This document shows positions 2,094-64,000 of a DNA stretch of 64,000 nucleotides, in pieces. Numbering within the stretch: position 1 is the stretch's first letter; each line of letters opens with the position of its first letter. The DNA comes from Wenjunlia tyrosinilytica (lineage in GTDB: Bacteria; Actinomycetota; Actinomycetes; Streptomycetales; Streptomycetaceae), in the NCBI RefSeq assembly GCF_014646055.1, contig NZ_BMMS01000001.1:333892-397891 (forward strand), given 5' to 3'. The position numbers and the translations under genes are program-made. The notes under the pieces were generated by a model, which did no database searches, was not told the DNA's origin, and saw nothing but the letters and a program-made list of their open reading frames with translations.

Positions 2094-3404
2094 TCAGCGC
2101 ACCACCAGGCGCTCGTGTAGGGCGACCGCCGAGGCGTCCGTCAGGGACGCGATCTGGTCGACGACCGCGCGCAGGCGGGCGCGGTCGTCGCCGGCGCGGT
2201 GGTACAGCGTCCGGAACGGAGGGGCCAGGGCTTCGGGGGCTCTGCGCATCAGGGCCTCGCCCAGTTCGGCCATGACGACGCGCTGGTGCCTGCGGCGGCG
2301 TTCCTGGTCGGCGCGCTGCATGACGTAGCGGTTGGCCACGCCCTTGAGCACGGCGCATTCCAGCCGTGCGGCGCGGGGCACGACCAGTTCGGCCTGGTAG
2401 CGGGTGAGCCGCCCCGGTCCGTGGCGGGCGCGGGTGGCCCGCTCCGCCTCCAGGCAGAACCGGCCGATGAGCTGGCTGGTGGCGTCCTTCAGACGGGCCT
2501 CGGCGACGGCCGACCCGTCGTAGGAGTGCGGCCACCACTCCTGGTCGTGCAGCCGGTCGAGCGCCTGGGCCAGTTCCTCGGTGTCCGCGTCCGGGGCGTA
2601 CCGCTTCACGGTCAGCTCGAACAGGTCCCTGCGCTCGGGCTCCGCGAGCAGCAGGCCGGGGTCGAGGTGTCCGGCGTGCAGCCCGTCCTCGAGGTCGTGC
2701 ACGGAGTAGGCGACGTCGTCCGCCCAGTCCATGACCTGCGCCTCGAAGCACTGGCGGCCCTCGGGGGCGCCCTCGCGCAGCCAGGCGAAGACCGGTGCGT
2801 CGTCCTCGTACACGCCGAACTTGGGCGACCGCGGGCCGTCGGGCCCCTCTGCCCGGGTCCAGGGGTATTTGGTTGCGGCGTCGAGGGCCGCCCGAGTGAG
2901 ATTGAGCCCGACGCTGCGCTCGCCGTCGCCGTCGGGGACGAACCGCTTGGGCTCCAGGCGGGTGAGCAGGCGCAGCGACTGCGCGTTCCCCTCGAAGCCC
3001 CCGCAGTCGGCGGCGAACGCGTTGAGCGCCTGCTCTCCGTTGTGGCCGAACGGGGGGTGGCCGAGGTCGTGCGCCAGGCACGCGGTCTCCACGAGGTCCG
3101 GATCGCAGCCGAGGGCGGCGCCGAGCTCACGGCCGACCTGCGCGCACTCCAGGGAGTGGGTGAGCCGGGTGCGCGGGCTCGTATTGATCTCGGGGGCGAC
3201 CTCCAGCGGCGCCACCACCTGGGTCTTGCCCGCGAGCCGCCGCAGCGCCGCCGAGTGCAGCACACGCGCCCGGTCCCGCTGGAACGCGGTGCGCCCGGGC
3301 CGCTTGTCCGGCTCGGACACCCAGCGTTCCTGTGCCGAGATGTCGTAGCCGGTGGCGGTCTGGTCCTGCGCGATCCCGTCCATACCCGGCACGGTAACCG
3401 CCAT
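2094..3404 (-). CDS. dgt: deoxyguanosinetriphosphate triphosphohydrolase-like protein
   Basis: A 436-residue HD-domain hydrolase of the Dgt/dNTPase family, which cleaves dGTP or other dNTPs to the deoxynucleoside and triphosphate and so helps control the dNTP pool. The metal site is complete: H83 in RLTHSLE, H112-D113 and H116 in [11 protein letters not shown], and the later Asp in [12 protein letters not shown]. The N-terminal signature ([26 protein letters not shown], residues 38-63) is typical of bacterial dNTPases. The start at 3404 gives family length; an in-frame ATG at residue 8 is a possible alternative. The small ORF at 3443-3598 ends 38 bp upstream and may share the transcript. Confidence 0.93.
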
Positions 3405-3442
3405 CGGCGACGATCAGTCCCCCGACGGGTGTCGGGGCGGTT

Positions 3443-3598
3443 TCAGTGCGGCGTGTGCTCGGGTCCCGAGGGCGGCGGCGGGGCGGGCGGCGCGAGCCGG
3501 GAGAGCTGGTCGGCGAGCTGTGCGTCGATCCTGGACATCAGCTGCGCTGTGCTGTCGAGGGTGGATTCCGGGCCGAGGTGTGCTGTCAGGGCCGTCAT
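3443..3598 (-). CDS. small hypothetical protein upstream of dgt
   Basis: A 51-codon ORF reading MTALTAHLGPESTL and ending in a Pro-rich tail (PPAPPPPSG). Third-position GC is high, as in neighbouring genes, and a short amphipathic stretch (STAQLMSRIDAQLADQLSRL) looks helical. It precedes dgt on the same strand by 38 bp. I recognise no family. No clear ribosome binding site is present; instead the hairpin at 3610-3627 lies 11 bp ahead of the ATG. It could be a real small protein or an open frame in the dgt leader. Confidence 0.4.
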   Translation of the reverse strand: MTALTAHLGPESTLDSTAQLMSRIDAQLADQLSRLAPPAPPPPSGPEHTPH

Positions 3599-3609
3599 GG
3601 GTCGAGTGT

Positions 3610-3627
3610 GGGCAACGGGTGTTGCCC
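3610..3627. promoter_or_regulatory. short inverted repeat in the dgt/response-regulator divergent region
   Basis: GGGCAAC-GGGT-GTTGCCC has perfect 7-bp arms with a 4-base loop. It is located between the divergent dgt transcript and the two-component operon, 11 bp from the small ORF start. It may be an operator or a leader hairpin; no regulator is identified. Confidence 0.3.
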
Positions 3628-3817
3628 ACTGGTTGCCTGCGGGTCACATATGGACGATCCGCCAGGGACCGCGCCATGGCCTTCGCCACGACTGGCCGCA
3701 GCACACGGCCGAAGCACATGATCGACCGCCGCGCAGCAATGTGATCGTCCCGTAACAATTACTCACCCATACGACCTCGGCAAATGAATTCGCACACGCT
3801 GTGCAGATACTGAGCAG

Positions 3818-4504
3818 ATGCCACGTGTCCTGCTCATAGAAGACGATCGCGCCGTGCGCGAAGGGGTGGAACTCGCCCTGCGCCGGCAGGGACACGACGT
3901 CGCCGCGGTCGAGACCGGTGAGGACGGGCTGGCCCGCCTGCGGTCGTTCCGCCCGGACGTCGTGGTGCTCGATCTGATGCTGCCCGGCATGACCGGCCTG
4001 GAGGTGTGCCGCCGGATCAGGGCCACCGACCAGGTGCCCATCCTCATGGCGACCGCCCGGGGCGACGACGTGGACGTCATCGTCGGGCTCGAGGCGGGGG
4101 CCGACGACTACGTGGTCAAACCCGTCCAGGCACGGGTGCTCGAGGCACGGATACGCGCGGTGCTGCGAAGGGTCGTCGGCACCACTGACGGCAGCGTGCC
4201 CCGCGTGGAGGTGCACGGCGACCTCACCGTCGACCGGGCCGGGCTCACCGTGACCCACCGCGGCGAGCCGATCCCGCTCGCCCCGTCCGAGCTGCGGCTC
4301 CTGCTCGTGCTCTCGGCCTCCCCCGGCCAGGTCTTCAGCCGCCAGCAGTTGCTGGAGTCGGTGTGGGAGCACAGCTACCACGGCGACTCACGGCTGGTGG
4401 ACGCCTGTGTGAAGAGGCTGCGCACCAAGATGGGAGAACCCGCGGGCCAGCCCCGCTATGTGCAGACCGTGCGCGGTTTCGGCTATCGGTTCCAGGCCCA
4501 ATGA
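3818..4504 (+). CDS. response regulator, OmpR/PhoB family (AfsQ1-like)
   Basis: A 228-residue two-component response regulator. The receiver domain (residues 1-115) has the acidic pair in IEDD, the phosphoacceptor D52 in VVLDLMLPG, T79 and K101 in VVKPVQ. A winged-helix DNA-binding domain follows (about 130-226), with SRQQLLESVWEHSYHGDSRLVDACVKRLR as the recognition region. The sequence strongly resembles AfsQ1-type regulators of Streptomyces. The paired kinase starts 24 bp after its stop, and the stop overlaps a decoy ATG as ATGA. A possible -10 (GATACT, 3806-3811) ends 6 bp before the ATG, so the message may be leaderless or nearly so. The signal and target genes are unknown. Confidence 0.92.
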   Translation: MPRVLLIEDDRAVREGVELALRRQGHDVAAVETGEDGLARLRSFRPDVVVLDLMLPGMTGLEVCRRIRATDQVPILMATARGDDVDVIVGLEAGADDYVVKPVQARVLEARIRAVLRRVVGTTDGSVPRVEVHGDLTVDRAGLTVTHRGEPIPLAPSELRLLLVLSASPGQVFSRQQLLESVWEHSYHGDSRLVDACVKRLRTKMGEPAGQPRYVQTVRGFGYRFQAQ

Positions 4505-57568: not shown

Positions 57569-58561
57569 TCAGTAGGGGCGGCCCGAGCGGGCCGCCCGGG
57601 AGACCGTGACCACCGCGCGCTCCAGCGCGTAGGCGGGGTCGTCGCCCCCGCCCTTGACGGCGGCGTCCGCCTCGGCCACGGCGATGAGAGCCGTGGCGAC
57701 GGCGTCGCCGGACCAGCCGCGCATCTGCTGGCGCACCCGGTCTATCTTCCACGGCGGCATACCGAGCTCCCTGGCCAGGTCGCCGGGGCGCATCCCCCGA
57801 GGGGCCGTGGCCAGCTTGCCGATGGCGCGCACCCCCTGGGCCAGGGCACTGGTGATGAGAACGGGCGCCACCCCGACCGCGAGCGCCCAGCGCAGCTGCT
57901 CGAGCGCTTCGGCGGCCCGTCCTTCGACGGCGCGATCCGCCACATTGAAGCTGGAGGCCTCGGCGCGCCCGGTGTAGTAGCGGGCGACCACGGCCTCGTC
58001 GATCGTGCCCTCGACGTCGGCGGACAGTTGGGAGCACGCACTGGCCAGTTCACGCAGATCGCTGCCCACGGCGTCCACCAGCGCCCGGCACGCGTCCTCG
58101 GTGGCCGAACGCCCCGCGGCCCGGAACTCCCCCCGGACGAACTGCAGCCGATCCGCCGGCTTGGTCATCTTCGGGCAGGCCACCTCGCGCGCGCCCGCCT
58201 TGCGGGCCACGTCCAGCAGACCCTTGCCCTTGGCGCCTCCCGCGTGGACGAGGACGAGGACGACCTCCTCCACCGGATCGCCGAGATACGCCTTCACATC
58301 CTTGACCGCGTCGGCGGCCAGATCCTGCGCGGCGCGCACCACGATCACCTTGCGCTCGGCGAACAGCGAAGGACTCGCCAACTCCGCGAGCGTGCCGGCC
58401 CGCACCGCGTCCGCCGTGAGATCGCGCACATCGGCGTCGGCGTCGGCCGCCCGGGCCGCCGCCACGACCTGGGCCACGGCCCGGTCGAGCAGTAGCTCCT
58501 CCTGCCCCACGGCGAGCGTCACGGGGGCGAGCGGGTCGTCGTTCGTCGTCTTCCTGGCCAT
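57569..58561 (-). CDS. holA: DNA polymerase III subunit delta
   Basis: A 330-residue clamp-loader delta subunit that opens the beta sliding clamp. The N-terminal domain (VTLAVGQEELLLDRAVAQVVAAAR) and the beta-binding and collar regions (CRALVDAVGSDLRELASACSQLS ... MPPWKIDRVRQQMRGWSGDAVATAL) fit HolA of actinobacteria. The ATG at 58561 (MARKTTNDDPLAPVTL) fits the family; the longer open frame is spurious. It is divergent from the small acidic protein gene. Confidence 0.95.
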   Translation of the reverse strand: MARKTTNDDPLAPVTLAVGQEELLLDRAVAQVVAAARAADADADVRDLTADAVRAGTLAELASPSLFAERKVIVVRAAQDLAADAVKDVKAYLGDPVEEVVLVLVHAGGAKGKGLLDVARKAGAREVACPKMTKPADRLQFVRGEFRAAGRSATEDACRALVDAVGSDLRELASACSQLSADVEGTIDEAVVARYYTGRAEASSFNVADRAVEGRAAEALEQLRWALAVGVAPVLITSALAQGVRAIGKLATAPRGMRPGDLARELGMPPWKIDRVRQQMRGWSGDAVATALIAVAEADAAVKGGGDDPAYALERAVVTVSRAARSGRPY

Positions 58562-58610
58562 CACCGCACAGCATCCCACGCCCCTCGGACATCGCCTGCC
58601 GCCGGGCAGA

Positions 58611-58859
58611 ATGGGCGCCGTGAACAGGCATGTACTGGTACTCCCCGACCGCGACACGGCCGAACTCGTGGCCGAAACGCTCATCACCCGCTTCCCCGTG
58701 AACGGCGAGCCGCTCCTCGTCCGCGACGCCCTCGCCGGTGAGGACGACGCCGAGGACGCGCAGTGGCTCGTCGTCGTGGAGGCGGCACTCGACGGGGAGG
58801 CCGTGAGCGCGCTGGACACCTTGGCCGCGGAGCACGAGGGCTGGCTCGAGGAGGAGTGA
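58611..58859 (+). CDS. small acidic hypothetical protein
   Basis: An 82-residue protein reading VNRHVLVLPDRDTAELVAETLITRFPVNGEPLLVRDALAGEDDAEDAQWLVVVEAAL and ending EGWLEEE. It is strongly acidic with a beta-alpha-beta-like pattern; I recognise no family. The start may be ATG 58611 or GTG 58620. It is divergent from holA by 49 bp. Codon use is like that of the neighbours, and its stop lies 53 bp before the stop of yeiH, at what appears to be the outer border of the lysR-CDO-yeiH cassette. Confidence 0.75.
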   Translation: MGAVNRHVLVLPDRDTAELVAETLITRFPVNGEPLLVRDALAGEDDAEDAQWLVVVEAALDGEAVSALDTLAAEHEGWLEEE

Positions 58860-58912: not shown

Positions 58913-59962
58913 CTAGGTGGTCAGGAGCACACCCGCGTAGGAGGCGGCGGCGATCACCAGCCAGGAGGTCAGCCCCAGGGCGGCGACGCGCAGGCCGGTG
59001 CGGGTGAGGGAGGGCAGATGGACCGCGGTGCCGAGACCGAAGAGGGCCGCCGCCAGGAGGAGTTCCTGAGCTGTTCGGGCGGAGTCCAGGAGGGTCTGCG
59101 GCAGCAGGCCGGTGGTGCGTGCGGCCACCATCACCAGGAAGCCCACCACGAACAGCGGCACCAGCGGAGGGCGCCTGGCTCCCGGCGAGGGGGTTCCGGT
59201 GCGGCGGCGGGCCGTCACCGCGATCCCGGCCACCAACGGGGCCAGCAGGGCCACCCGCATCAGCTTGACCAGCACGGCCTCCCCGAGCGCGTCCGGGCCG
59301 GCCGTCTGCGCGGTCGCCACCACCTGTCCCACATCGTGCACCCCCGCTCCCACCCAGCGGCCGAACTGCGCGTCACTGAGCCCCAGCGGGTGGTGCAGCA
59401 ACGGCAGTACCGCGATGGCGAGCGTGCCGCAGAGCGTCACCAGCGCCACCGAGGTGACGACGTCCTCCTCCTCGCTGTCGGTCACGGCACTCACCGCGCC
59501 GATCGCGGAGGCACCGCAGATCGAGTAGCCGGTGGCGATCAGGAGCGGCTGGTCCCCTGGGAGCCCGATGCGCCGCCCGAGCCACCAGGTGCCGCAGAAC
59601 GTGGCCGCCACCACCGCCAGCACCATCGCCACCGTCGCCCAGCCGAGCCCCAGCACGTCCCCCGCGCTCAGCTTCAGGCCGAGCAGGACGATCCCGAGCC
59701 GCATCAGCCGCTTGCCGGCCAGGGACAGCCCCGGGCGGCACCCGCCGCGCACCCGTGTGCGCAGCCGGGGCGTGTGGGCGGCGGCGATACCGAGCACCAC
59801 GGCGGCGGTCAGCATCGGCACCGCGGGCACCAACCGGTGCACCGCCCATGCCGTCCCGACTCCCAGGGCCGCCAGCGCCAGTCCCGCGGTGGGGCCGGTC
59901 CCGGTTGCCCGTTCGCGGGGCGGCGCCCACAGGGTGCGCTCACGCGAACCGATCAGCGCCAT
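58913..59962 (-). CDS. YeiH family putative sulfate/sulfite exporter
   Basis: A 349-residue membrane protein of the YeiH/UPF0324 family with ten or so helices. Typical segments are AGKRLMRLGIVLLGLKLSAGDVLGLGW, TGYSICGASAIGAVSAV and GAGVHDVGQVVATAQTAG. Members near sulfonate or cysteine catabolism genes are proposed to export sulfite or sulfate. The ATG at 59962 overlaps the cysteine dioxygenase stop by one base (TGATG), so the two are coupled. The comEC reading frame runs open, in the same frame, through this start codon. Confidence 0.92.
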   Translation of the reverse strand: MALIGSRERTLWAPPRERATGTGPTAGLALAALGVGTAWAVHRLVPAVPMLTAAVVLGIAAAHTPRLRTRVRGGCRPGLSLAGKRLMRLGIVLLGLKLSAGDVLGLGWATVAMVLAVVAATFCGTWWLGRRIGLPGDQPLLIATGYSICGASAIGAVSAVTDSEEEDVVTSVALVTLCGTLAIAVLPLLHHPLGLSDAQFGRWVGAGVHDVGQVVATAQTAGPDALGEAVLVKLMRVALLAPLVAGIAVTARRRTGTPSPGARRPPLVPLFVVGFLVMVAARTTGLLPQTLLDSARTAQELLLAAALFGLGTAVHLPSLTRTGLRVAALGLTSWLVIAAASYAGVLLTT

Positions 59963-60528
59963 CACCGGTCGGCGGGCAGTTTGTAGACGCGGCGGATGCT
60001 GGTGCCCAGGCGGGCTATGTCGGCGCCGTAGACGTGGAGGGAAATCGCCGTGGACGTGCAGTTGTTGCGCACGCGGTGGATGTCGCCCGGCGGGGCGAAC
60101 CCGCAGACCGTGCCCTGCGCGTTGACCACGTGCTCGGTGGCGACCAGACGGGCGGTGGTGCCGTCCGAGACCAGCCGGTAGCGGCGTTCGCTCTCCTCGC
60201 CCTCCAGGACGCCCGTGACGCACCAGGAGACATGGTCGTGGATCGGCGTGACCTGCCCGGGCAGCCACACGAGGGCGACCACCGAGAAGCTGCCGTCGCT
60301 CTCGGCGTGCAGCACATGCTGGCGGTAGCGGTCGGGGTCGCCCTGGCGCTGCTCGCCGGTGAGCAGGTCCGACTCGCCGAGGAACGGCGCCAGGCGCTCC
60401 GCCACCAGATAGGCGGTCAACTCCGGTGGCAGACCGCGTCCCACGGCCTCGCGGACCTCCCCGACCAGTGCGTCGAGGCGTGCGGTGGTGCGGCGGGCTG
60501 CGGTTCGTGACGCGGTCGAAAGGGTCAT
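59962..60528 (-). CDS. cysteine dioxygenase
   Basis: A 188-residue cupin that oxidises cysteine to cysteine sulfinate with iron and O2. Iron ligands are in TPIHDHVSWCVTGVLEGEE (two His) and DIHRVRN (third His); substrate residues include Tyr-Arg in PDRYRQHVLH, and the Ser-His-Tyr triad is in ISLHVYGAD. The Cys that crosslinks to Tyr in animal enzymes is not at the usual place, as in other bacterial enzymes. ATG 60528 is preferred; ATG 60555 and TTG 60564 are in frame. It is coupled to yeiH and lies 96 bp after the lysR stop. Confidence 0.92.
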   Translation of the reverse strand: MTLSTASRTAARRTTARLDALVGEVREAVGRGLPPELTAYLVAERLAPFLGESDLLTGEQRQGDPDRYRQHVLHAESDGSFSVVALVWLPGQVTPIHDHVSWCVTGVLEGEESERRYRLVSDGTTARLVATEHVVNAQGTVCGFAPPGDIHRVRNNCTSTAISLHVYGADIARLGTSIRRVYKLPADR

Positions 60529-60563
60529 ATCGGCAGCGTCCCGCCGCCGATCCATTACGTCCA

Positions 60564-60625
60564 AGGAGGGTTTCTTGCCCGGTCTCCAACGGGTGCTTAT
60601 GGGTTTGCTGAACGCGAACCCTCCT
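60564..60625. promoter_or_regulatory. inverted repeat between lysR and the cysteine dioxygenase gene
   Basis: AGGAGGGTT (60564-60572) and AACCCTCCT (60617-60625) are perfect 9-bp arms 44 bp apart in the 96-bp gap. They may be LysR-type operator halves or fold the transcript; the gap is also less GC-rich than the surroundings. Confidence 0.35.
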
Positions 60626-61542
60626 CAGCAGCCGACCCGGGCCGCCGCCACCGTCTTGATCTCGTCCAGTACCAGGGCGGTGGCGGGGATGCGCAGATGG
60701 TCGCGTAGGACATAGGCGGACACCTTGCGGCGGGTGTGCGGTTCCACGGCCCGGCCGGTCACCTTCTTGTGGCACAGGAAGGAGAGCACGAGTGCGGGCA
60801 TCATCGCGATGCCCACGCCGGCGGCGACAAGGCTCTGCACCACGAGGTTGTCGTCGGTGGTGAAGGCGATGTCGGGGGTGAACCCCTCCTCCGCGCACGC
60901 GTGCAGGAAGTTGGCCCGGCAGCGGGGGCATCCCGCAATCCAGCGTTCCGCCGCCAGGTCCGCGAGATGGACCGCGCGCCTGCGTGCCAGCGGGTGCCCG
61001 GCCGGCAGTAACACCGTCAGCTGGTCCTCCAGCAACGGGATCTCCACCAGGTCCTCCGGCACCTCCACATGCAGGCCGGGATAGGTGAACCCGAGGGTGA
61101 TGTCGCACTCGCCTCGCGCCAGTCGCCGCAGGGAGTCCGGAGGTTCGCCCTCCTGGAGCTCCACCCGGATACCCGGGTACTCCGCCGCGAGCCTGGCCAT
61201 CGCCTCCGGGATGACGGTGGCGCCGGCGCTGGGGAACGCGCACAGCCGCACCCGTCCCGTGCGGAGCCTCGCGATGGCGCTGATCTGCTGCTGTGCGGCG
61301 AGCAGGCTGTCCAGGATGGTGCCCGCGTGGCGCGTCAGCGCCTCTCCGGCCTCGGTGAGCCGGATTCCCCGTCCGACGCGAGTGAACAAGGGCGTGCCGA
61401 CGTCCCGTTCGAGTGCCTTCATCTGCTGGCTGATCGCGGGCTGGGTGTAGCCGAGCGATCGGGCGGCCGCGGAGTACGACCCGGTCCTGACCACTTCGTG
61501 GAAAGTCTTGATGTGCCGGGAGTCGAACACGCGAAGAATCAT
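60625..61542 (-). CDS. LysR family transcriptional regulator
   Basis: A 305-residue LysR-type regulator. The N-terminal winged helix is clear (DSRHIKTFHEVVRTGSYSAAARSLGYTQPAISQQMKALERDVGTPLFTRVGRGIRLTEAG), followed by a two-lobe ligand-binding domain (RVRLCAFPSAGATVIPEAMARL ... ITLGFTYPG ... VVQSLVAAGVGIAMMPALV). Co-directional with cysteine dioxygenase and yeiH rather than divergent, which is less usual for the family. The ATG at 61542 is only about 45 bp past the last ComEC-like codon. It probably senses cysteine or a sulfur metabolite; inference. Confidence 0.93.
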   Translation of the reverse strand: MILRVFDSRHIKTFHEVVRTGSYSAAARSLGYTQPAISQQMKALERDVGTPLFTRVGRGIRLTEAGEALTRHAGTILDSLLAAQQQISAIARLRTGRVRLCAFPSAGATVIPEAMARLAAEYPGIRVELQEGEPPDSLRRLARGECDITLGFTYPGLHVEVPEDLVEIPLLEDQLTVLLPAGHPLARRRAVHLADLAAERWIAGCPRCRANFLHACAEEGFTPDIAFTTDDNLVVQSLVAAGVGIAMMPALVLSFLCHKKVTGRAVEPHTRRKVSAYVLRDHLRIPATALVLDEIKTVAAARVGC

Positions 61543-64000
61543 AAGCGGAGATTGGAAAGGCGGACGATTCCCTGTCCTGATGCTTTTGCGCCACCCGCAG
61601 GTCCTCCCGGTCGCCGAGAACGGCGACGGAGCCGTCGGTGTCGGTGCGCAGGACCATGGCACCGGTGGAGCGCAGAGCGGTGACCGTGCGGGGCGAGGGG
61701 TGGCCATAGGGGTTGTCGCGGCCGCAGGAGATCAGGGCGAGCCGTGGGCGCAGGCGCCGCAGAAGCGCGGGATCCTGGTAGGCGGACCCATGATGGGCGA
61801 CCTTGACCACATCGACACGTGGCAGGTCGGGGACAGTGGCCAGCAGGCGTTCCTGGGCGAGGGGTTCGAGGTCGCCGAGGAGGAGGACGGTCAGGTCCGC
61901 GACCGTGACCGTGACGAGCATGACGACGCTGGCGTTGTTGGGGCCCTCCTCGCCCGGTCCTGACGCGGGCGGCCACAGGATCCGCCAGGTCAGCGGGCCG
62001 ACCCCTCGGGCCTCCCCGGCGGTGCCGCGCATGACCGGGACGCGGGCGGTTGCCGCCGCCCGCGCCACCATGGCGCGCTGGTCCGGCGGGTCGGCCAGGC
62101 CGGTGGTCTCGATGGCGCCGACGGTCCGGCCCCGGAGCGCGCCCGGCAGACCCGCGACATGGTCGGCGTGGAAGTGGGTGAGCACCAGCAGGGGGATGCG
62201 GGTGACGGCGAGTTCGCGCAGGCATGTGTCGATCGCCTCGGGTGCGGGGCCGGTGTCGACGACCACGGCGGCACCGGCTCCCGCCGCCAGGACCAGGGCA
62301 TCTCCCTGGCCGACGTCGCACATCGCCATACGCCAGTGCCGGGGCGGCCAGCCGGTGACGAAGCGGGTCAGCGGTGCGGGGCGCAGGACCGCCATCATCA
62401 GGAGGAGGACCAGGATCGCGCACAGCGCCGGTCTGCGCAGGAGCGGCCGGGCGACGATCACGGCGAGGGCGCACATCCCGGCGAGGAGCAGGCCGCCGAG
62501 CGGGCCTCCGGGCCAGTTGAGCTGGGCGCCGGGAAGAGCTGCGCCCGTGCGGGCGATGGAGGCGATCCAACCCGCGGGCCAACCTGCCAGTCGGCACAGC
62601 GCTTTGGCGATGGGCATCGCCACGGGGGCGGCTGCGAGGGCCGTGAAGCCGAGCACGGTGGCTGGGGCGACGGCCAGTTCGGCGAGCAGATTGCAGGGGA
62701 CGGCGACAAGGCTGACGCGGGCGGCCATGACCGCGACGACGGGAGCGCACACGGCCTGGGCCGCCGCTGTGGCGGCGACGACTTCTGCGAGGCGGCCGGG
62801 CATTCCGCGGTGCCGCAGGCTCTCGCTCCAGCGTGGGGCGATGACCAGCAGAGCGCCGGTTGCCAGTACGGACAGCAGGAAGCCGTAGGAGCGGGACAGC
62901 CAGGGGAAGAACAGCACGAGGAGGAGAACGGCTCCGGCGAGGCCGGGGACGAGGGAGCGACGGCGCCCGGTGCCAATGGCCACCAGGGTGATGAGGCCGC
63001 AGGCGGCGGCGCGCAGGACGCTCGGCTCGGGGCGGCAGAGGATGACAAAGCCGACCGTGAGCAAGCCCCCGAGGAGCGCGGTCAGGCGCAGCGGCAGTCC
63101 GAAGCTCGGGGCGAGACCGCCGCGTTCGGCGCGGATGGCGAGGCCGGGCGGACCGATGAGTACGGAGAGCAGGATCGTCAGGTTCGCTCCGCTCACCGCG
63201 AGGAGATGGCTGAGATCGGTCGAACGGAAGTCCTCGGTGAGCTCGGGCGGGATACGGGAGGTGTCTCCGATGACCAGGCCCGGCAGGAGGGCCCGGGCAT
63301 CGGGAGGCAGCCCGTCGGTGGCCGTGCGAAGCCCGGCACGGAGCCGCCCGGCAGCCCGCTGGACGGCGGTGGGTGCCCCGGTGACGCGTGGCACCCGGCG
63401 GACCCGCAGGACGGCGGCGATGCGGTCCCCGGGCAGGGCGGATGGGGTGAACTCGGCGTCGGCGGTCACTCGCGTCGAAGGCAGCAGGTCCATCCACTGG
63501 GCGGCGCCGGGACCTTGGGCGAGAACGAGGACGGGGGTGCGAACCCTGGTGGACTCGGTGACAGTGGTGACGCGGTCGGCGGTGGCCTCCAGCATGACCA
63601 GGGCGGGCCCCTGAGTCGCCCCCCGCACATGAGGGCGGTGGGTGCGGGGATCACCGCTGACGGTGAACTCCACGGTCGCCCGCCCATGCTCCCGGGCAAG
63701 CGCCGGAATGGGTCCCCGGTAGAGGTCGGCGGCATGGCAGGTGGCGACAAGGGCGGAGGCCGCCGCGCAGAGCAACACCCCAGCCCCCGCGGCCCGGCGT
63801 GCCCCGCGCTGGCGCCCCACGAGGAGAAGGACGGCGAGCACCAGGGCGCCGACGGTGATCGGCAGCACGACGGCCGCCGGAGCCCGGAGCGCGAGAGAGG
63901 CAGCGAGCCACGCGGCGGCCGCCGGGAGAGCCAGTCGAAGGTCGGTCGGACGACTCTCGGGGTCGGGAGCCGCGAGCCCGCGGGCAGGGGTGCCGGGGGT
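61543..64000 (-). CDS. ComEC/Rec2 family competence protein, 5' end off window, no own stop
   Basis: Partial: the frame is open to the right edge, and PTDLRLALPAAAAWLAASLALRAP just inside it is the usual Streptomyces ComEC N-terminal region. Then come the DUF4131-like domain, the multi-helix competence channel (LLAVSGANLTILLSVLIGPPG ...) and a metallo-beta-lactamase domain with THFHADHVAGLPG. Homology reaches DTDGSVAVLGDREDLRVA, about where relatives end (codon 61589-61591), but no stop follows; the frame stays open past lysR and cysteine dioxygenase and joins yeiH in phase, ending at 58913. The end shown is the lysR start, not a stop codon. ComEC relatives transport DNA. Confidence 0.85.

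Follow-up and report, generated by a model that had tools for sequence, protein, structure and literature searches.

The stretch of DNA studied here (the window, 64,000 nucleotides of Wenjunlia tyrosinilytica; C1:333892-397891 of a 522,775 bp contig) carries, at the 3' end of the competence gene comEC, a cassette of three genes that encode a LysR-type regulator (lysR), a thiol dioxygenase (CDO) and a putative sulfite/sulfate exporter (yeiH). It is probable that this cassette is a mobile LysR-dioxygenase-YeiH operon with two operator-like copies that was inserted at the end of comEC, that the comEC stop codon was lost and that the 891-codon continuation of the comEC frame has no function. The directly observed parts of this account are the homology limits, the conserved motifs and spacings, a conflict between gene trees, the lack of a match in the congener compared and two perfect copies of one motif. 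The puzzle of an open frame of some 1,650 codons becomes a largely resolved insertion junction, and the main interest lies in the cassette itself, a mobile sulfur module seemingly with its own two-site control.

In the proposed mechanism, a horizontally moving operon would have come into a variable slot between comEC and a small conserved open reading frame (ORF). The left end of the cassette would have joined within the last comEC codons, with loss of the comEC stop and probably of a few codons. The LysR regulator would bind a first site over its own -10-like box, and so regulate itself, and a second site about 72 nt before the dioxygenase ATG, where it would activate the dioxygenase and yeiH. 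The dioxygenase would then oxidise small thiols to sulfinates, sulfite would be released from these, and YeiH would remove the sulfite. Ribosomes finishing comEC would produce an unstable tail or drop off.

Distribution and horizontal movement of the cassette

A query spanning the comEC end, lysR, CDO and part of yeiH has at least a partial match (E ≤ 1e-100) in 143 of 394 genomes of the family, its own included. The order and direction of lysR, CDO and yeiH are the same in 43 of 44 loci (43 genomes, picked from the best matches); the exception is L243, in which no yeiH was found. A query across the comEC-lysR junction has, among the matches listed, an end-to-end match only in its own genome, and each of the other listed matches is confined to one half of the query, comEC or lysR. 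The congener G001, the only one compared, has no cassette match at E ≤ 1e-100, and its best LysR is 46% identical. Its comEC stops after LRAVTRR and is followed by a TetR gene, a methyltransferase gene and a third likely ORF; a search of this stretch of G001 did not find the small ORF.

The trees of the cassette genes and of the flank disagree (31-35 genomes each). In the lysR and yeiH trees the window copy groups with G230, G289, G320 and G091, which belong to another genus, g9 (95/88 and 100/99). The vertical marker was holA (DNA polymerase III delta), whose ORF lies at 57569..58819 on the minus strand with a start that is not fixed. In its tree the window stands with G001 (99/91), and G230, G289, G320 and G091 lie together inside the sampled g9 genomes. 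The flanks of nine cassettes also differ: they group as G230/G289, G320/G091 and G157/G211/G394, and those of G120 and G128 match none. Horizontal acquisition of lysR-CDO-yeiH is well supported by these comparisons. The preliminary description of this DNA had proposed an acquired cassette that removed the comEC terminus; the colinear unit, the tree conflict, the differing flanks, the lack of a match in G001 and the missing comEC stop all favor this proposal, and only its fusion part is not proven. A rearranged form of the unit is seen in locus L004 (genome G012, 377-2366), where yeiH and lysR are on opposite strands with no dioxygenase match between them.

The slot that received the cassette is bordered on its other side by the small conserved ORF (58620..58859, plus strand), which is convergent with comEC here. 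The succession holA-small ORF-comEC had been regarded as the usual neighbourhood, interrupted only by the three genes. The slot is mostly filled by other genes, so this arrangement is one state of several. The gap between comEC and the small ORF is below 300 bp in 4 of the 69 named loci with both borders. Genes in the slot were identified with a codon-position filter, which replaced an initial clustering of slot ORFs that picked up mostly shadow frames. A family represented by an arylamine N-acetyltransferase occupies 45 loci and one represented by a YceI-like gene 29 loci, while pyridoxamine-oxidase-like, MOSC, MFS, permease and DUF899 genes occur in fewer. Recurring short variable gene sets are found in the comEC-small ORF slot of loci L033-L112.

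The junction between comEC and the cassette

The comEC 3' part (61589..64000, minus strand; start beyond the window) encodes Competence (PF03772, E 3.6e-39) and metallo-beta-lactamase (PF00753, E 1.9e-10) domains, which place it in the ComEC/Rec2 family, and contains the LTHFHADH motif. Against TIGR00361 it scores 128 bits, below the cut-off of 190, with its 5' end cut off by the window. As described before, the similarity to ComEC runs to the residues LRVA and no stop follows: the homology limit is at 61589 and the minus-strand frame 64000..58913 is open. Most of the ComEC/Rec2 relatives examined have a prompt stop near the aligned end, which the window comEC lacks. A stop after LRVA in relatives had been suggested as a check, and 31 of 80 named relatives indeed end in a VAxD-like tail (e.g., LRVARD, LRVAGD, LRVAQD) followed by a stop. 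Because the homology reaches 61589 and these relatives have such tails, the loss from comEC was probably confined to the stop and a few codons.

Directly after the homology limit begins the distal element CAAAAGCA (61581..61588, minus strand), 45 nt upstream of the TATGAT box of lysR. This 8-mer has a single occurrence, the present one, in 808 kb of strand sequence. In the alignment of the regions upstream of lysR, which retained 69 of 72 loci (L220 and L223 were dropped for want of a recognisable start and L137 for a score that was too low), the element is exact in 2 relatives and present with at most two mismatches in 10, and the count peaks at this offset. An element reading CCAAAAG, CCAGAAG or CCATAGG lies about 45 nt ahead of TATGAT in 24 of the 69. 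From the comEC homology limit and the spacing of CAAAAGCA in relatives, we infer that comEC and the upstream region of the cassette meet at 61588..61589. Plain DNA similarity to relatives mostly starts at 61555, the edge of the first operator-like site. The lower guanine-plus-cytosine (GC) content reported just before the supposed lysR ATG is present, with 52% GC in 61543-61588. Inspection by eye led us to reject a canonical -1 slippery site at GCG CAA AAG.

The comEC frame beyond the junction

Past the junction the comEC frame continues for 891 codons (58913..61588, minus strand), with 542 shadow codons followed by the in-phase yeiH. Its phase differs from that of lysR (offset 2) and of the dioxygenase and agrees with that of yeiH, whose ATG is at 59962, as in the preliminary description. 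The open frame, put there at more than 1,650 codons, comprises 1695 codons within the window and 2027 in the contig, since it is open upstream of comEC too. This upstream openness indicates that long open frames come cheaply in this genome.

Among comEC frames elsewhere, 7 of 97 continue at least 100 codons beyond the aligned end, 2 of these 7 to the end of the stretch. The 97 rows exclude the window's own loci and duplicates, and a recount again gave 7. A strong lysR match was found in none of the 97 comEC stretches, which are of differing length. In locus L164 of genome G018, from another genus, comEC also lacks a prompt stop (about 2490-4182). Its frame runs on for 564 codons and crosses holA, which closely follows comEC there; G018 has no cassette match at E ≤ 1e-100, and a small ORF was not detected in the stretch. 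The missing stop had been presented as the proof of a fusion. It is no such proof, because a prompt stop is also missing from some comEC frames at which no cassette is seen.

Operator-like sites and the lysR start

Two copies of one motif accompany lysR. Site 1 (CCAA-N5-GCTTATG; 61540..61555, minus strand) overlaps the -10-like TATGAT box, and site 2 (CATAAGC-N5-TTGG; 60586..60601, minus strand), before the dioxygenase, is its inverted copy. The sequence CCAA-N5-GCTTAT is found upstream of lysR in 54 of 69 relatives. The core of site 2, ATAAG[CT], is present in the lysR-CDO gap of 44 of 45 relatives, where shuffles expect 0.74, and GCTTAT[CG] in the gap of none of the 45 (the set omits the window and L119, a duplicate of L242). 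The whole genome of 8.49 Mb contains exactly two perfect CATAAGC-N5-TTGG sites, one before lysR and, inverted, one before CDO. The 30 other genomes searched (28 have a cassette match, 2 have none) contain 55 perfect sites in 27 genomes, compared with 12 of the reversed pattern, and 35 of the 55 are within the cassette. The CATAAGC-N5-TTGG pair flanking lysR is new here. One identical site, CATAAGCCCTCCTTGG, recurs outside the cassette in 11 of the 30 genomes and makes up 11 of the 20 outside sites; it may be another target of the regulator, or a conserved element that has nothing to do with it.

The lysR gene (60625..61530, minus strand) had been given a start at the ATG at 61542. This ATG sits within the conserved TATGAT-like box, and the GTG at 61530 is a likelier start. 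Of 69 relatives, 52 have the box 18 nt ahead of a conserved Asp codon, 3 have it at 19 nt, as does the window, and 14 have it at 43-107 nt. The ATG in the box is therefore no shared start, being out of frame at 18 nt and at variable distances elsewhere. The start codon lies 6-7 nt downstream of the box, and this spacing suggests that TATGAT is probably a -10 box and that lysR is probably leaderless from GTG 61530. A sigma-70 and terminator scan, in which other promoter types are not modelled, detected no promoter; its single terminator-like hit, a weak one, is on the plus strand. In nine relatives (L198, L204, L207, L208, L211, L212, L232, L234 and L235) a GC-rich terminator-like inverted repeat stands directly before site 1.

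Cassette proteins and their predicted function

The LysR protein contains the HTH_1 and LysR substrate domains and is a member of the LysR-type regulators. It scores 89.2 bits against the NCBIfam YeiE equivalog, whose cut-off is 480, and is not assigned to YeiE. The exporter gene yeiH (58913..59962, minus strand) has an ATG that overlaps the TGA of the dioxygenase gene. Its product belongs to the exporter family by its PF03601 match (E 4.1e-65) and scores 161 bits against TIGR00698, below the cut-off of 232.6.

The dioxygenase (59962..60528, minus strand) has a CDO_I family domain match. The best matches in the PDB are 4wvz, 3uss/4tlf and 6xb9 (E 3.5e-25 to 1.7e-23; 3.5e-25 for 4wvz), the nearest being 3-mercaptopropionate dioxygenases. 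The best mammalian-type cysteine dioxygenase is much further away (E 9.1e-6). A Gln in place of an Arg is a sign of the Gln-type thiol dioxygenases. In the present protein Gln70 aligns with the Gln of 4wvz, at what we take to be the position of the typical Gln of 3-mercaptopropionate dioxygenases, and the HDH residues and the later His are present. The enzyme is closest to the thiol dioxygenases of the 3-mercaptopropionate type, and its substrate is a prediction from this similarity.

Two studies bear on the pathway. In Advenella, the sulfinates formed by such dioxygenases release sulfite, either spontaneously or through the desulfinase Acd (PMC5373536). In Salmonella, YeiH is the main sulfite-resistance factor, and the LysR protein that regulates it acts on its own gene as well (PMC12880088). 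Given this sulfinate chemistry and this role of YeiH, the cassette probably oxidises small thiols and clears the resulting sulfite. As a LysR/thiol dioxygenase/YeiH unit with two operator-like sites, it offers a testable sulfite-control module in Streptomycetaceae. A more far-reaching proposal, which we regard as rather unlikely, is that of a self-contained mobile sulfite-detoxification switch that works wherever it has landed by means of its own regulator and operator pair, and in which comEC transcription feeds lysR or bound LysR acts as a roadblock to comEC.

Evaluation of the explanations

Several observations weigh against an inserted operon followed by an empty frame. No transposase or integrase is among the named genes of the slot and no clear flanking repeat was seen there; integrases were not searched for in the wider neighbourhood. 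The repeat search returned only short imperfect pairs, of which D7 (58693/61611, 16 nt, 88%) and D10 (58823/61465, 15 nt, 93%) are close to both borders, perhaps by chance. The comparison within the genus consists of G001 alone. A distal element of the kind that places the junction is present in just 24 of the 69 relatives and is lacking in the four closest cassettes (G230, G289, G320 and G091). The last bases of the junction consequently rest on more distant relatives, which weakens the placement and does not remove it. As for the motif, 20 of the 55 perfect sites of the other genomes fall outside the cassette, and perfect sites are absent from G138 and G056 altogether and from the cassette of G349. 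When one mismatch is allowed, the reversed control pattern reaches 39 sites in the genome and the motif 6, which leaves weight to the perfect sites alone.

The remaining counter-evidence concerns the openness of the frame. In a simulation that redrew synonymous codons from the mean codon usage of five genes, the comEC frame reached yeiH with P=0.00055. Of the 32 cassette loci of relatives, none keeps this frame open over such a distance: counted from the LysR Val, the longest opening is 674 codons, compared with 871 in the window. Real genes of this genome behave otherwise. In 404 kb, 160 likely genes have 300 or more codons, and 26 of them have the same-phase shadow frame open through at least 298 codons; of the 33 genes with 542 or more codons, 3 have it open through at least 541. 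The other shadow frame is open through 298 codons in none of the 160. This gene set was obtained with the codon-position filter and no gene finder; it shares about 6 kb with the window, and this part enters the counts twice. The simulation null is judged too strict, because real genes are open more often (26/160) than the 3.6% simulated for lysR. The preliminary remark that spurious long frames are common at this GC content is supported by the real genes of the genome and opposed by the codon null and the relatives. We read the evidence as mixed and the openness as ordinary or mildly unusual. The 891-codon continuation is most likely a functionless GC-rich shadow frame, and the caution to be drawn is that missing stops in GC-rich genomes can yield huge empty frames.

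The same openness is the ground for supposing that comEC is translated through the lysR/CDO shadow frame into yeiH to give a ComEC-linker-YeiH membrane protein. The frame is uninterrupted and in phase with yeiH, its openness is rare under the synonymous null, and it exceeds that of all 32 relatives' cassette loci. Same-phase open shadow frames are, however, not rare in the genes of this genome, the frame is open upstream of comEC as well, and yeiH starts at an ATG of its own, which overlaps the stop of the dioxygenase gene. Moreover, the linker is not conserved, as the frames of relatives break before the end of yeiH. Such a fusion protein is very improbable. An error of sequencing or assembly, in which an indel near the comEC end hides the stop, is somewhat less remote and still very unlikely. 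A one-base change would end comEC at the TGA 61541-61539 in the -1 frame, and the assembly is in 172 contigs. On the other hand, the spacing of 45 nt between CAAAAGCA and TATGAT, the same as in 10 relatives, makes an indel there unlikely, the nearer contig end is some 127 kb away, so that the junction is at no contig edge, and comEC is homologous in frame to 61589.

The loss of the stop might also be one of several lesions in a decaying comEC pseudogene. In addition to the lost stop, comEC shares 70% identical residues with G001 over 790, and holA, which diverges less, 85% over 320. Its ratio of nonsynonymous to synonymous substitution (dN/dS) is 0.29 (dN 0.24, dS 0.82), about twice the 0.14 of holA. 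Nevertheless, the part of comEC within the window has no internal stop or frameshift, LTHFHADH is present, and a dN/dS of 0.29 still means constraint since the split from G001, an average that is silent on the period after the insertion. Decay of comEC is accordingly the least improbable of these alternatives, and an unlikely one. The insertion of a mobile operon at the end of comEC remains the preferred explanation.

Comparison with known systems

No operon of LysR, thiol dioxygenase and YeiH was found in the literature searched, which leaves most subscription papers outside; a Bordetella table lists both kinds of gene among others. On comEC and Streptomyces, the part of the search results examined holds nothing on C-terminal extensions. 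The comEC continuation resembles the stop-loss C-terminal extensions of PMC4494051, in which the reading frame of an old protein continues into downstream sequence once its stop is gone. Those extensions, from yeast and flies, are short segments, unlike the 891 codons across other genes described here, which are probably unused. In Advenella, mdo has the desulfinase gene acd as its neighbour, and a LysR gene is found at a distance of three genes; the passage names no yeiH, and a putative sulfate exporter is located elsewhere (PMC5373536). The YeiE-YeiH system of Salmonella likewise has a LysR regulator, which there controls itself and the adjacent yeiH. Its genes are transcribed from divergent promoters, whereas those of the present cassette are colinear, with a thiol dioxygenase gene between the regulator and the exporter (PMC12880088).

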